Part shown: positions 51,745 to 55,802 of the stretch, piece after piece
How the letters are laid out: the number at the start of each line of letters is the position of its first letter
How positions within the stretch are numbered: the stretch's first letter is position 1
Assembly (NCBI RefSeq): GCF_000478195.2
Contig: NZ_AUZM01000009.1
Coordinates: forward strand, 1-64,000
Direction: 5' to 3'
DNA: 64,000 nucleotides
From: Lyngbya aestuarii BL J
Lineage (GTDB): Bacteria > Cyanobacteriota > Cyanobacteriia > Cyanobacteriales > Microcoleaceae
Notes under the pieces: generated by a model
Told to the model about the DNA's origin: nothing
The model's input: only the letters and a program-made list of their open reading frames with translations
Database searches by the model: none
Made by a program: the position numbers and the translations under genes

Positions 51745-52422
51745 ATGCTTAAGCATAAATTGAGAATGGCGATTATTCAATGTGATCAGCGATGGTATCG
51801 TTCTGTACTCTTGGCGTTAGGTGTTAGTGTTCTAACGGTGTTTGCTAGTGGGATAGAATTCAGTCACTTTCAGGGACTAGCTAGAATCAGTGGGTTAACA
51901 ACTCCTGCGGCGATCGCCCAACAACCCCCAACTCGCGTTGTTAGAATTCGAGATGTTTGGCAACAAGTTTATCAACAATTACCCGATCTCCCCAAAGAAA
52001 ATAATTATGTTTCCTTAGAAAACGGAGAAGTCGCCGCAGAGGATACATTAATTGGGCGATTAATTCGCTATCATGTTTATGTCAAAGGACGTTCTCCCTT
52101 ATCTCGATTTGATTGGAAGCTAACATTAGCTGATTATTTGGGTGTTAATGAAGCAATGTTAGAATCTCAATATCCAGGGGCTGATTCATTGCAAAAAAAT
52201 CCCCGTGATGGCGATCGCGAAACTGTGAGAACCTTTAACCGCAGCCAAAGACAGGAGTTAGTCGATACACTTGTTAATTCCTTTGATCCAAACTCTTCGG
52301 AGAATGCGTCAGATTCCCCCGACGGTTCATCAGAAGAAACTACTCAAACCTCACCCAAAAATGGAAGTTCGCCCTTACCTCCCCTCCCTCAACCTGGAGA
52401 TGCCGAATTATTGCAACTCTAA
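51745..52422 (+). CDS. Conserved hypothetical protein with N-terminal membrane anchor or signal
   Basis: A 225-residue protein. Residues about 20-58 contain a hydrophobic segment (SVLLALGVSVLTVFASGIEF) and then TTPAAIAQQ, a possible signal peptidase site. The middle part (RIRDVWQQVYQQLPDLPKEN, LIGRLIRYHVYVKGRSPLSRFDWKLTLADYLG) is the likely folded domain. The end is Ser/Asn/Pro-rich. It looks like a cyanobacteria-specific exported or thylakoid-associated protein; function unknown. Confidence 0.75.
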   Translation: MLKHKLRMAIIQCDQRWYRSVLLALGVSVLTVFASGIEFSHFQGLARISGLTTPAAIAQQPPTRVVRIRDVWQQVYQQLPDLPKENNYVSLENGEVAAEDTLIGRLIRYHVYVKGRSPLSRFDWKLTLADYLGVNEAMLESQYPGADSLQKNPRDGDRETVRTFNRSQRQELVDTLVNSFDPNSSENASDSPDGSSEETTQTSPKNGSSPLPPLPQPGDAELLQL

Positions 52423-52800: not shown

Positions 52801-52835
52801 TCTGTGTTCATCATGCTATACTAAGTGAATATGTT

Positions 52836-52909
52836 CGGGGCGTAGCGCAGCTTGGTAGCGCACCACTTTGGGGTAGTGGGGGTCGTGGGTTCAAATCCCG
52901 CCGCTCCGA
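52836..52909 (+). tRNA. tRNA-Pro (anticodon GGG)
   Basis: A 74-base cloverleaf. The acceptor stem CGGGGCG (52836-52842) pairs with CGCTCCG (52902-52908) with one G-T pair. The D arm is GCGC...GCGC, the anticodon stem CCACT/AGTGG with loop TTGGGGT gives anticodon GGG, and the T arm is GTGGG-TTCAAAT-CCCGC. The discriminator base is A; CCA is not encoded. The 3' end is the attachment site of the adjacent element. Confidence 0.96.
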
Positions 52910-52911
52910 TT
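52888..52911. mobile_element. attL of the tRNA-Pro element
   Basis: These 24 bases, from the T arm through the discriminator base of tRNA-Pro plus TT, are repeated exactly at 55475-55498. The flanking bases differ on both sides. The tRNA is left intact by the insertion, as usual for integrases that use tRNA 3' ends. Confidence 0.9.
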
Positions 52912-53491
52912 TCGCCTAACGGCGTAAATACGGCACTTGCAGCACTCTCATCTCCGACTAGCCTACTGGCTTCTATCTAAAATCTATCCAAATTCAAATT
53001 TAGCAAGAATGTAGTTAACTGCCTAGATTGCCTAGTAAATCAACGAGCATATAACTGTAATCCTGTCAAATCTATACTTCACTCTGTTTCTACTACTTAC
53101 CCCCCCAACCTGAACTCTTAAGCCTACCAATGTCGCTCTATCTGTCAAGGTCAAGCCTACGGTGCTACGCAACCCTGACAGCCCTCACTAGCCATTGGTG
53201 TCTTGAGTTTGTCAGGTTATGGGGGAAGGTCTGTTAAGGGATTATTACAACAATCACATCACCACCTATTTTGAGAGTCACTAGCTCGTAACCTACCTTT
53301 TGCATGACCTCTCGATTTTTGGTTGTAACCTGGCAATAAAAACAGATTCTAGAGTCAAAGTCAGGTTTTAACTGCGATATCGTTTTGGAACAAAAATGAA
53401 AATCGACTAATTCTGTTATCTCGTGACTTAATTCTGTTTTTTTGATTTCTCTGTTGTTACATCTCTCTAACAGTTGATAGCTACACACACC
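52912..53491. other. Non-coding left part of the element
   Basis: No supportable gene. The motif CTGTCA/TGACAG recurs (about 53141, 53175 and, as GTCAGG, 53211), and CCAATG/CATTGG are inverted across about 70 bases near 53127-53198. These could be arm-type integrase binding sites or a structured RNA; neither can be decided here. Confidence 0.4.
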
Positions 53492-53523
53492 AAAAACTCC
53501 CACAAGCTATGTTATATGGGAGT
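53492..53523 (-). terminator. Terminator inside the element
   Basis: On the minus strand ACTCCCA and TGGGAGT form a perfect 7-bp stem over a 14-base loop, followed by TTTTTG. It lies about 300 bases beyond the recombinase stop and would end its transcript. An open frame that starts inside this hairpin was not accepted as a gene. Confidence 0.7.
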
Positions 53524-53531
53524 TCTGATGG

Positions 53532-53558
53532 TTATATAAGGTTGCTTATATAAGGTTG
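53532..53558. repeat. 13-bp direct repeat in the element
   Basis: TTATATAAGGTTG occurs at 53532-53544 and again at 53546-53558, one base apart (period 14). It is iteron-like and could be a binding site for an element-encoded protein. Confidence 0.65.
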
Positions 53559-53686
53559 GTTAGTAGACTTTCATAGCTTTTCTTTTAACTTCGATTCTTT
53601 AGCAGGATACAAAACCTCTATTCTCTCTAGCCTGCCGACTTAACTAAATCAGATATCACGTTGTCAATTAGTTTCGAGATGTCGCA

Positions 53687-53758
53687 CTCACCCCTAGCTT
53701 TTGCTAACTCTGAATCTTATATAAGAAATCCTATATAGGATGTGAGTTAAGGGGTGAG
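53687..53758. repeat. Nested palindromes in the element
   Basis: CTCACCCCT (53687-53695) and AGGGGTGAG (53750-53758) are inverted arms. Between them are two adjacent perfect palindromes, TCTTATATAAGA (53715-53726) and ATCCTATATAGGAT (53728-53741). The recombinase stop lies 60 bases further on. Operator, recombination or replication sites are all possible. Confidence 0.65.
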
Positions 53759-53818
53759 GAGTTGTTAAAGGGGTTAGTAGAACTCAAGTTTGAATTAAAA
53801 ATTTGATTTTTAAGAGTC

Positions 53819-54958
53819 TTACTTAATTCTGACTACCTTATCGCTACCTTGTAGATTCTGAATTATCTCTTTCAGGTTCATATTTTCCCGCTTCGAGAAA
53901 GCTAACAGTTCTTGCAATCTAGCGTTCTCAGCTTTCAATCGTTCATTGTCATTCCTTAGCTGTTCTATCCCGTTGATATCCCTTGTCAGCAAGTCTAAGC
54001 TAGCGTCAATAGTCTTATGCTTGTTGTAACGCTCATTCATTGCCTTAGAGTGTCCTAGAGTTAAAGCTCGTTGGTCGTCTGTTAGCCCTGATAACGTACC
54101 GTGTAAGTTAGCTAGATGTCGAAGTGCATGGGTTTGACTGAAGCCTAGTCCGCATTGAGTTACCCATCGTCCTAATTTTCTTGACATACCTCTGAGGTAG
54201 CAATCTTTAATTGTTCTAGGTTTAGAAGTGCTTTTGGGATTTAATGTCGGTAAAGAAATATCAGGATTTTTGATGTCTAACATTTTAATCAAATTAGGGT
54301 AGTCAGGATGTACCATTGGACGCGCTAAACGACCCTTAGTTTTGATGGTTATTTTGTGAATATTACCACTGTCGTCTATGACCTCATGCCAATCATTCAG
54401 GACTAGAATATTGTTTTTATTGTTTGAGTCATACAGAGCCGGAATAACACGCTTCCCAACGGTTACGGGTTTATCAAGGTTAGCAATAGCTTTGAATTCT
54501 TGACCTCTGAATCCATAAATTAAATTGATTGATAACGCTTTAAACCATTGTTGTCTAGTTTCGAGGTTGTTGGCTTGTATCTTGCTTAAAGTGTAACCAC
54601 CAAGTCCTAGTATTCGATTTCTGAAATCAAGAAATAAATTAATATCTATCTCTTGCACCTCTATTTTTTGTGTAACTTCTATCTTCCCATAGTGTTCTAT
54701 CCATTTTTGAAGTTCTCCGTGTTGTTTCGTCTCTCTCAATAGCTTACAAATTGCAGCGTTAGCGTTCTTGTACCCCTTACGTCCCTTAAGGTGTCCCCAA
54801 ATGCTGTCAAACTGAGTTATCAAGGCTGAAGCGTTACAGATTTTAGATTTGTCTAGCTTCTTATAGAACATCCCATAAGTGGTATCCCAGTTAGCCTCCG
54901 TGTTTGACTCAAACCCTTTCTCATTACGTTTTAAACTCCGTTTGTCAGTTGCCTCCAT
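53819..54958 (-). CDS. Tyrosine recombinase (integrase), catalytic part
   Basis: A 379-residue frame with core-binding and catalytic domains. Active-site residues appear in order: Arg in YGFRGQEFKA (near 151), HALRH (near 278), LGHS (near 302) and the nucleophile in ERYNKHK (near 311). A predicted coiled coil (about 335-378, LRNDNERLKAENARLQELLA) forms the C-terminus. The same frame continues upstream of this ATG through two TAA codons into the 102-codon frame at 55076-55384, which supplies the arm-binding domain. Whether the short form is active is unknown. Confidence 0.85.
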   Translation of the reverse strand: MEATDKRSLKRNEKGFESNTEANWDTTYGMFYKKLDKSKICNASALITQFDSIWGHLKGRKGYKNANAAICKLLRETKQHGELQKWIEHYGKIEVTQKIEVQEIDINLFLDFRNRILGLGGYTLSKIQANNLETRQQWFKALSINLIYGFRGQEFKAIANLDKPVTVGKRVIPALYDSNNKNNILVLNDWHEVIDDSGNIHKITIKTKGRLARPMVHPDYPNLIKMLDIKNPDISLPTLNPKSTSKPRTIKDCYLRGMSRKLGRWVTQCGLGFSQTHALRHLANLHGTLSGLTDDQRALTLGHSKAMNERYNKHKTIDASLDLLTRDINGIEQLRNDNERLKAENARLQELLAFSKRENMNLKEIIQNLQGSDKVVRIK

Positions 54959-55075
54959 GTATCGTTCCTTCCAAAGCTTAATCGCATCCTCAATAGTTAT
55001 TAGGTCATTTTTAATCTGACTTTTTTCTTCAATTTATTGACTGTACCATTGCCAAAAATCAGACTCATTCTCAAA

Positions 55076-55384
55076 TTATTTAAGCTTGTCAGCAACCTTG
55101 AAAGATTTGATTAAAGCATTGATTAACCCATCTTTATTGAATATCTCGTTACACGGGTTATCCTTGTCCGCTCTTGGATGACTCGCAGTCTTGAATCTTA
55201 GATATAGTCGATTAGATTTTTTAGCACTGTAAGAAATACTTACACCCTTAGGGGTTGACTTTTTACATCCTGTAAGATATACTTGCAAGCTTTCAAAATA
55301 AACAAGCTTTGATGTGTCTATACCGTTTGATAAAAACCATTGGTTAAGGGTATCCAATGCTAGAACGCTATAATCCTTGTTCAT
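55076..55384 (-). pseudogene. N-terminal arm-binding part of the integrase, cut off by stop codons
   Basis: A 102-codon frame starting MNKDYSVLALDTLNQWFLSN. Its second half (GVSISYSAKKSNRLYLRFKT, then NPCNEIFNKDGLINALIKSF) has the strand-strand-strand-helix pattern of integrase arm-type DNA-binding domains. It ends in TAA at 55076-55078. The frame then reads FENESDFWQWYSQ, a second TAA (55034-55036), and IEEKSQIKNDLITIEDAIKL joined without shift to the catalytic frame. Both stops are one C-to-T change from CAA (Gln). Separate use as a small DNA-binding protein is possible. Confidence 0.7.
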
Positions 55385-55474
55385 TTCTACCTATTTTCTA
55401 CCTAAAATCTGCATTCGGTAGACTAGGTGAGGTTTACAGCGTCTTCGTTGTGACCTCATTTTTTATGACTATGC

Positions 55475-55498
55475 GGTTCAAATCCCGCCGCTCCGATT
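55475..55498. mobile_element. attR of the tRNA-Pro element
   Basis: Exact 24-base copy of the tRNA-Pro 3' end (GGTTCAAATCCCGCCGCTCC followed by GATT). Upstream sequence has no tRNA similarity, so it is a fragment and not a second tRNA. Confidence 0.9.
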
Positions 55499-55547: not shown

Positions 55548-55802
55548 TTAACATTTATATTTCTTCTGGTTCGCTTCCAGAAGGCTCTGATATCTGGCGA
55601 TCGCTTTCTGATGAGCCATTTGGTCATGGCGGTTGGCCTGCCAGTCTCGCAGCAGTTCCAAGTTGTACCGGACGACACGGGAGTTGATCGGTATCCAGTG
55701 AATTCCTTCTATCCACTCCTCCCCGGCTCGATATCTTCGGATGGTGGCATCGCAGCAGGAAAGACATTCACAAGCTTGATGTTTATCTACGAACTGATAC
55801 AT
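55548..55802 (-). CDS. Excisionase-like helix-turn-helix protein
   Basis: An 84-residue basic protein beginning MYQFVDKHQACECLSCCDAT and continuing IRRYRAGEEWIEGIHWIPINSRVVRY. The layout (KxxAcexLgccxxTIxRYRxGxEW, then a wing with NSRxVRYNLEL) is that of MerR/excisionase-type small proteins common beside mobile genes in cyanobacteria. It lies 50 bases outside attR, so it is not inside the present element but could be the relic of a neighbouring one. Confidence 0.65.
   Translation of the reverse strand: MYQFVDKHQACECLSCCDATIRRYRAGEEWIEGIHWIPINSRVVRYNLELLRDWQANRHDQMAHQKAIARYQSLLEANQKKYKC

Follow-up and report, generated by a model that had tools for sequence, protein, structure and literature searches.

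tRNA-borne islands with tyrosine integrases are well known, and the locus described here gives access to a minimal, regular and largely unannotated family of this kind. In islands of the type recognized by the Islander method, an integrase gene is accompanied by a tRNA gene rebuilt at one end and a displaced tRNA fragment at the other; according to the Islander paper, integrases are found through the Pfam family PF00589 and candidates below 2 kb are rejected (PMC4383910). The same arrangement occurs in the cyanobacterium Lyngbya aestuarii BL J, in a 2.6-kb element at positions 52888-55498 of the window, i.e., the whole analysed stretch of 64,000 nucleotides from contig NZ_AUZM01000009.1. Judged from its sequence, this stretch is quite probably what is left of a small tRNA-targeting element after integration and decay. 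The best reading assigns it to a family of minimal elements, so far little noticed, that target the T-arm of tRNA genes. Unlike the islands defined by the Islander criteria, the window protein and three relatives have no PF00589 match, and some members measure 1.7-1.9 kb. Islander would therefore miss the smallest members and probably others, because of its 2-kb minimum and the absence of a PF00589 match in the four proteins tested.

Other described systems share particular features with this family. Tycheposons of Prochlorococcus are presented in PMC10872708 as cargo-carrying elements of 4-200 kbp that use 7 tRNA genes. Cyanobacterial hosts, a tyrosine recombinase and several tRNA targets are common to both groups, whereas the elements discussed here, compared by description only, range from 1.7 to 9.3 kb and hold no metabolic cargo among the proteins scanned. 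Lambda-type integrases with an arm-binding domain, as outlined in PMC8138268, resemble those described here in the predicted three-domain fold and in having pairs of arm sites to the left and right of the core; in contrast, the tested members of the present family have no Pfam, NCBIfam or PHROGs integrase match, and no excisionase was found. For mycobacteriophage Ms6, strand exchange in the tRNA T-loop has been suggested, and an altered core allows integration at another tRNA gene (PMC1762012). Ms6 is, however, a phage that uses tRNA-Ala genes, while the present family spans nine isotypes in 14 bracketed elements. Among pT26-2-type archaeal integrative plasmids, suicidal integrases of Thermococcales are reported at 14 tRNA genes, which likewise represents one integrase family diversified over many tRNA genes; these are archaeal plasmids, and those with 14 targets have suicidal integrases (PMC8371274). 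Target diversification as such is thus already known, both from the redirected Ms6 core and from the pT26-2-type integrases. No published description of the family itself was found in literature searches judged mostly from titles and the beginnings of abstracts. An earlier reading of the sequence alone (the original prediction) had stated that the element could not be matched to a described family, which was a fair statement, and the family can be delimited here.

The boundaries of the element are defined by a 24-bp core, GGTTCAAATCCCGCCGCTCCGATT, which is present in exact form at 52888-52911 and 55475-55498. With up to 3 mismatches allowed, there is no further match in the 64 kb, and none appeared in 100 shuffles. 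The first copy is the tail of tRNA-Pro(GGG), from the T-arm to the 3' end, plus one following base; under the usual integration scheme, the 3' end of this tRNA would come from the element. A whole tRNA and a displaced tail around an integrase gene are the features of a tRNA-borne genomic island. The corresponding positions are as follows:

52835-52910, plus strand: tRNA-Pro(GGG), the target gene (ARAGORN; Rfam RF00005).
52888-52911, plus strand: core of the left attachment site (attL), 24 bp, exact repeat.
53819-55384, minus strand: tyrosine integrase gene, broken by in-frame TAA at 55076-55078 and 55034-55036.
53822-54958, minus strand: open part of 379 amino acids (aa), core-binding and catalytic domains, with R151, K206, H277/R280, H303 and Y311.
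55079-55384, minus strand: open part of 102 aa, equivalent to the arm-binding domain by alignment to the intact relative L085.
55475-55498, plus strand: core of the right attachment site (attR), 24 bp, exact repeat; two other contigs of the same genome, C74 with two copies and C16, share the right end as far as the core.

The integrase starts 90 bp from attR, and its frame is interrupted at codon 103 (55076-55078) and codon 117 (55034-55036). With its gene broken by these two TAA codons, the window copy can no longer yield a full-length integrase and is probably immobile; to move, it would need an integrase provided in trans. No other convincing gene is present inside the element: the stretch from 52912 to about 53818 lacks one, and the sole other listed open reading frame (ORF) of at least 50 aa encodes 89 aa with no family match above the cut-off. 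The original prediction had described exact 24-bp repeats around a tyrosine recombinase and no evident cargo. Both repeat positions were verified, no further convincing gene emerged, and the recombinase is backed by conserved residues and a predicted fold despite the lack of a profile match. The broken frame of the integrase had been overlooked.

The occupied state of the tRNA gene can be compared with that in related genomes. In the window, a DUF1818 gene adjoins tRNA-Pro(GGG), and the stretch with both genes matches 40 of 40 genomes (own included), as a whole or in part, and in some at the tRNA only. None of the 20 relative loci fetched has a second tRNA-Pro(GGG) tail downstream (22 nt, up to 4 mismatches), within about 10 kb in 19 loci and 1.8 kb in one; ARAGORN confirmed the tRNA in the five loci missed under a stricter filter. 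This absence supports the earlier proposal of a minimal integrase-bearing element inserted in a tRNA gene. The empty-site check proposed with it was borne out as regards the missing second tail, whereas a base-exact empty junction was not seen, because the right flank is not conserved in relatives.

The nature of the enzyme is indicated by its active site and fold. R151, K206, R280, H303 and Y311 (379-aa numbering) are invariant in all 19 aligned rows, window included, and H277-x-x-R280 is complete in the window copy, with H or Y at the first position of HxxR across relatives. This R-K-(H/Y)xxR-H-Y set is what we take to be the catalytic residues of a tyrosine recombinase. The AlphaFold2 model of the 379-aa part has a mean predicted local distance difference test score (pLDDT) of 75.9 and a predicted TM-score (pTM) of 0.62. 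Tyrosine recombinases (Tn1549 Int, lambda Int, XerH, Cre) come on top in both Foldseek and VIA comparisons of this part, and the leading 34 VIA rows are all of this kind, the best being 3nkh_A (Z 11.0, root-mean-square deviation (rmsd) 3.7, 166 aligned). Catalytic residues and fold together place the protein in the tyrosine recombinase superfamily. L085, an uninterrupted 462-aa relative from Chlorogloea purpurea (pLDDT 84.1, pTM 0.54), matches full-length lambda Int over residues 13-431 (VIA, 1z1b_A, Z 13.1, 310 aligned, rmsd 12.4); given this rmsd, the domains are placed differently in the model and in lambda Int. Three strands and a helix at residues 28-79 of L085 form a predicted N-terminal arm-binding domain. 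According to these models, the window integrase is of three-domain lambda-type kinship, its arm-binding domain being predicted from L085.

Profile-based searches gave no comparable signal. The Pfam family Phage_integrase (PF00589) matches neither the window protein, at E up to 1, nor the relatives L080, L051 and L078, at E up to 0.1. PHROGs and NCBIfam, queried with the window protein and with two or three relatives, likewise returned no integrase. A PDB sequence search with L080 gave nothing useful, and a search of genome contigs with the window protein alone was unproductive. A protelomerase (telomere resolvase) was also considered, prompted by the Y or H at the HxxR position, and seems less likely; integrases rank higher structurally, with TelK and TelA reaching Z 5.9 for the window part and 7.7-8.4 for L085, below the integrases.

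The wider family provides the comparison in which the regular architecture becomes visible. The window integrase is matched in 13 of 59 genomes (own plus 58 relatives), the own genome being one of the 13. A profile search with a cut-off of E <= 1e-10 picked out 18 among 386 cyanobacterial genomes, again counting the own genome; Arthrospira sp. PCC 9108 has 33 integrase-family matches in one genome. The scan drew on 79 locus ids with a total of 91 integrase ORF rows; some places were repeated, and many rows represent Arthrospira or contig-end copies. Twelve distinct elements at a tRNA gene proved to have a T-arm repeat, and together with the window copy and C74 they make up the 14 bracketed elements. 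The targets of these 12 are Gly(TCC), Val(GAC), Thr(CGT), Asn(GTT), Leu(CAA), Gly(CCC), Met(CAT) twice, Thr(TGT), Leu(TAG), Ser(TGA) and Pro(GGG); the Leu(CAA) element is that of Lyngbya contig C66, and the other 11 reside in other cyanobacteria. The nine isotypes of the 14 become ten with a Trp relic. In all 14 elements, the attachment repeat precedes the integrase start by 76-111 bp and the gene is directed toward the tRNA. Sizes range from 1.67 to 9.3 kb, and in four elements the integrase is the only ORF of at least 80 aa: L080 (1.67 kb), L195 (1.7 kb), L191 (1.9 kb) and L085 (2.2 kb). L080, L191 and L085 keep all catalytic residues. At tRNA-Met, the truncated integrase of L195 has neither the H box nor the Y box, and the repeat of L191 is only 16 bp long.

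Some members and candidates deserve separate mention. L051 encodes a tail-fibre-type S74 protein. A 9-kb relative at tRNA-Gly(CCC) (L208:3716-12722) carries a run of small genes, and the 7 of its 10 non-integrase ORFs of at least 80 aa that were scanned (Pfam and/or PHROGs) gave only weak AAA-type rows. L203, with a 17-bp repeat at tRNA-Lys, was dropped, the repeat not being T-arm; the Arthrospira element L091 (37-bp repeat, no tRNA called) was excluded from the 14. Among Arthrospira loci L044-L063, 14 copy ends were read: nine show AGCGTC|TAYATAGCC in varied locations where no tRNA was called, and five are T-arm-like. No direct repeat was present in the two Arthrospira copies whose far end was checked.

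A second regularity concerns short repeats that flank the core on both sides, which in the window are placed as follows:

52973-52990, plus strand: L-arm heptamer pair CTATCTA / CTATCCA, 11 bp apart, degenerate (P=0.137 here, 0.001 in C74).
55387-55404, plus strand: R-arm heptamer pair CTACCTA / CTACCTA, 11 bp apart, beside the integrase start codon.
55417-55428, minus strand: candidate inverted copy of the arm-type motif, read from the sequence.

Each of the 14 bracketed elements has, within 75 bp surrounding the integrase start, an exact 7-mer repeated at 11 bp, a distance of about one helical turn. Other heptamer spacings from 7 to 19 are found in at most 2 of the 14, and 500 shuffled sets gave at most 1 each. 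The heptamers are element-specific and some are shared (CTACCTA, TTACCCA, TTACTCA, CTATCCA, TCACTCA, TCTCTCA, TTGCTCA, TGATGCA, TCGCTCA and others). In 11 of the 14 elements, the same heptamer pair recurs in the opposite arm at P <= 0.0055 (shuffles for both arms were made by two-base blocks); its distance from the core is 46-82 bp in nine of these 11 and 23 and 152 bp in the remaining two. For Gly(TCC), the L-arm pair is borderline (P=0.049). The 14 elements are not fully independent, since they include the window copy with C74, two Met elements and a Leu/Ser pair, and some cross-element arm comparisons score equally well because the heptamers are similar or identical between elements. Repeated putative arm sites are thus present on both sides of the core, in the R arm of 14 and the L arm of 11 elements, as in lambda-type systems. 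The agreement of both arms of one element at a fixed spacing is the strongest sign of a lambda-type mechanism. Furthermore, the R-arm pair overlaps the integrase start codon or sits within about 10 bp of it, so that the integrase probably limits its own expression through self-repression.

The Lyngbya genome itself retains a record of related elements, with 13 DNA matches in the assembly, window itself included. C74 holds a 5.9-kb relative at tRNA-His(GTG) with a 26-bp attachment repeat and three extra ORFs. This element (L009:4188-10143) is composite: it contains a second left end and a right end, both inverted, and also an attP-like junction, where a right end is joined to a left end via a 23-bp core identical to the tail of tRNA-Gly(CCC). 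The junction looks like the joined ends of an excised circle; around the tRNA-Gly(CCC) gene itself, in C25, about 1.5 kb were free of any right end. Left-end relics are found at tRNA-Pro(CGG) in C8 and at tRNA-Pro(TGG) in C26, and C84 has an integrase fragment. C16 has a tRNA array (L013:7165-9394) that contains duplicated Leu/Ser/Trp pieces and, as a scar of the family, a right end attached to the tail of tRNA-Trp(CCA). A more distant relative in C66 (L080:6080-7753) occupies tRNA-Leu(CAA) with a 30-bp repeat, and its 468-aa integrase, the only uninterrupted one of the wider family found in this genome, has an arm heptamer that differs from that of the window copy. L080 is the best candidate for an activity test.

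Comparison of these copies points to a change of target. When the 14 integrases are placed in a tree, that of the window pairs with that of C74 (91% identity over 479 columns) despite their Pro and His targets; the Leu(TAG) and Ser(TGA) elements form another pair, and the other Pro(GGG) element groups with these two, not with the window copy. Four right ends in this genome are conserved up to the core, whereas the core differs and matches the tRNA where one is present. Similarly, the left end is 96% identical at tRNA-Pro(GGG) and tRNA-Pro(CGG), while the tRNAs themselves are 79% identical. Since the tail carried by each close relative is that of its own host tRNA, targets have changed within the lineage. 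In the mechanism proposed here, the integrase would bind the arm sites through its N-terminal domain, crossover would occur in the T-loop part of the core, insertion would rebuild the tRNA from the element's own copy of the tail, and the element would excise as a circle with joined ends.

Several observations weigh against reading the stretch as a copy of a tRNA-targeting element with a lambda-type integrase. The Foldseek TM-scores are modest, at 0.25-0.49 by either length in the leading 14 rows. There is no sign of current activity: the integrase has two premature stops, and the L-arm pair is not significant in the window copy (P=0.137), as is also the case for Leu(CAA) (P=0.128). No excisionase was identified; in the integrase-only members, the ORFs considered were those of at least 80 aa, and the integrase is the only one. 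The right flank is conserved in none of the 39 relatives searched (own genome only, 1 of 40). One of the 20 relatives, G010, has a 45-nt tRNA 3' fragment of 87% identity about 48 kb downstream on the same contig; the gene and the fragment may bracket a different, larger island. Finally, only 1 of 20 fetched Arthrospira PCC 9108 loci (L051) lies at a called tRNA with a repeat. As a side observation, the G010 gene of tRNA-Pro(GGG) type is at 3458-3921 of C103 and the fragment at 52242-52286, and the tRNA differs at 6 positions.

Among the alternatives, the strongest concerns the origin of the small size and is compatible with the interpretation preferred here: the window copy could be a deletion remnant of a larger plasmid-like or satellite element that lost ancestral replication genes between its left end and the integrase. 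This is a serious contender, though its chances fall somewhat short of even. The 5.9-kb C74 relative with its extra ORFs is consistent with it, as are larger relatives that carry VapE (L078, L197), PrimPol and DUF3987 (a PrimPol-helicase, L199) or a D5-type helicase (L193), and the non-coding left half of the window copy is longer than that of integrase-only elements. On the other hand, the window copy has no trace of replication genes in its ORF list or family scan, and in four bracketed relatives no ORF of at least 80 aa exists besides the integrase. Small size need not mean recent deletion, because three of these four (L080, L191, L085) have complete catalytic residues. The original prediction had called the element satellite-like, which was not shown: no plasmid or phage record was matched by protein or by DNA, viral contigs gave no useful match with A2, A3 or the 34-nt hairpin motif, and replication genes of the satellite or plasmid kind (VapE, primase) occur only in some larger relatives.

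An unlikely alternative is a non-autonomous element resembling a miniature inverted-repeat transposable element (MITE), moved in trans, with its ends kept and its integrase dead. The C74 integrase gene is 88% identical to that of the window (contig C9) and carries the codon-117 TAA but no other internal stop, so that the codon-103 stop is specific to the window copy; the shared stop, together with end relics at three more tRNA genes, would fit such trans mobilization. However, the two genes differ by a synonymous divergence (dS) of 0.53 and a non-synonymous divergence (dN) of 0.054, with 0 gaps in 1566 bp, and the resulting ratio of 0.10 means that both derive from functional genes and diverged under selection for function. 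Divergence is moreover patchy: codons 41-120, where the shared stop lies, differ at 8 of 240 nt versus 12% overall, and local gene conversion may be the source of this stop, although other short stretches are equally similar. The differing arm heptamer of C66, which has the only uninterrupted family integrase found in the genome, also argues against the MITE-like scenario.

Far less probable is a split integrase, in which the stops separate an arm-binding peptide from a core-binding and catalytic protein, both being used. Codons 103 and 117 do map between the arm-binding and core-binding parts in the alignment to L085, and purifying selection downstream of the stops is strong (dN/dS 0.09), but C74 has ATC in place of the ATG with which the second part begins, and the other 18 alignment rows are single open chains. 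A chance tRNA fragment or a tandem tRNA duplication without any element has a negligible probability: short tRNA fragments do occur in genomes, such as partial tRNA-Pro matches, yet no repeat arose in shuffles, the integrase and arm sites keep similar positions in 14 elements, and related ends lie at five tRNA loci of the same genome.

The left half of the element and its right-hand neighbour complete the description of the decayed tRNA-targeting copy. Two folded regions are found in this half:

53107-53222, no strand assigned: nested inverted repeat (hairpin), in a block also found in C74 (two copies), in C26 and partly in C8.
53680-53760, no strand assigned: strong palindrome (z -5.53), not aligned in C74 copies.

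The DNA fold of the first region has z -3.95 on the minus and -2.50 on the plus strand, and its hairpin sequence is retained in the left-end relic of C26; a third candidate fold at 53500-53570 is not significant (z -1.31). The original prediction had placed iteron-like repeats and nested palindromes in the non-coding half. Folding is confirmed at both regions, while the meaningful repeats sit at the two ends (52973-52990 and 55387-55404) and not in the middle of the element. An RNA gene in the left half was considered and rejected: Rfam matched only the tRNA itself, and one sub-threshold snoRNA row fell outside the element. Just beyond attR, an 84-aa ORF at 55548-55802 (minus strand) has a weak helix-turn-helix match (E 0.039, below the cut-off), and in G010/L147 the same tRNA has a 34%-identical relative of this ORF about 1.3 kb downstream.

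A broader interpretation can be offered tentatively, as a possibility somewhat less likely than the deletion origin. The family may consist of undescribed elements of insertion-sequence size, down to 1.67 kb with an integrase only, that hop among tRNA genes within one genome by means of the universal T-arm, adopt the tail of each target and could use any tRNA gene as a safe harbour, the window copy being a recent casualty. The family is small and testable, and it would be missed by profile-based annotation and by Islander-type searches. Its arm-site code is regular, with one heptamer per element arranged in 11-bp pairs, usually on both sides. Integrase-only members represent minimal integration systems that occur in nature. 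Through copies that are closely similar yet sit at different tRNA genes, the old question of how an integrase changes its tRNA target becomes directly testable.

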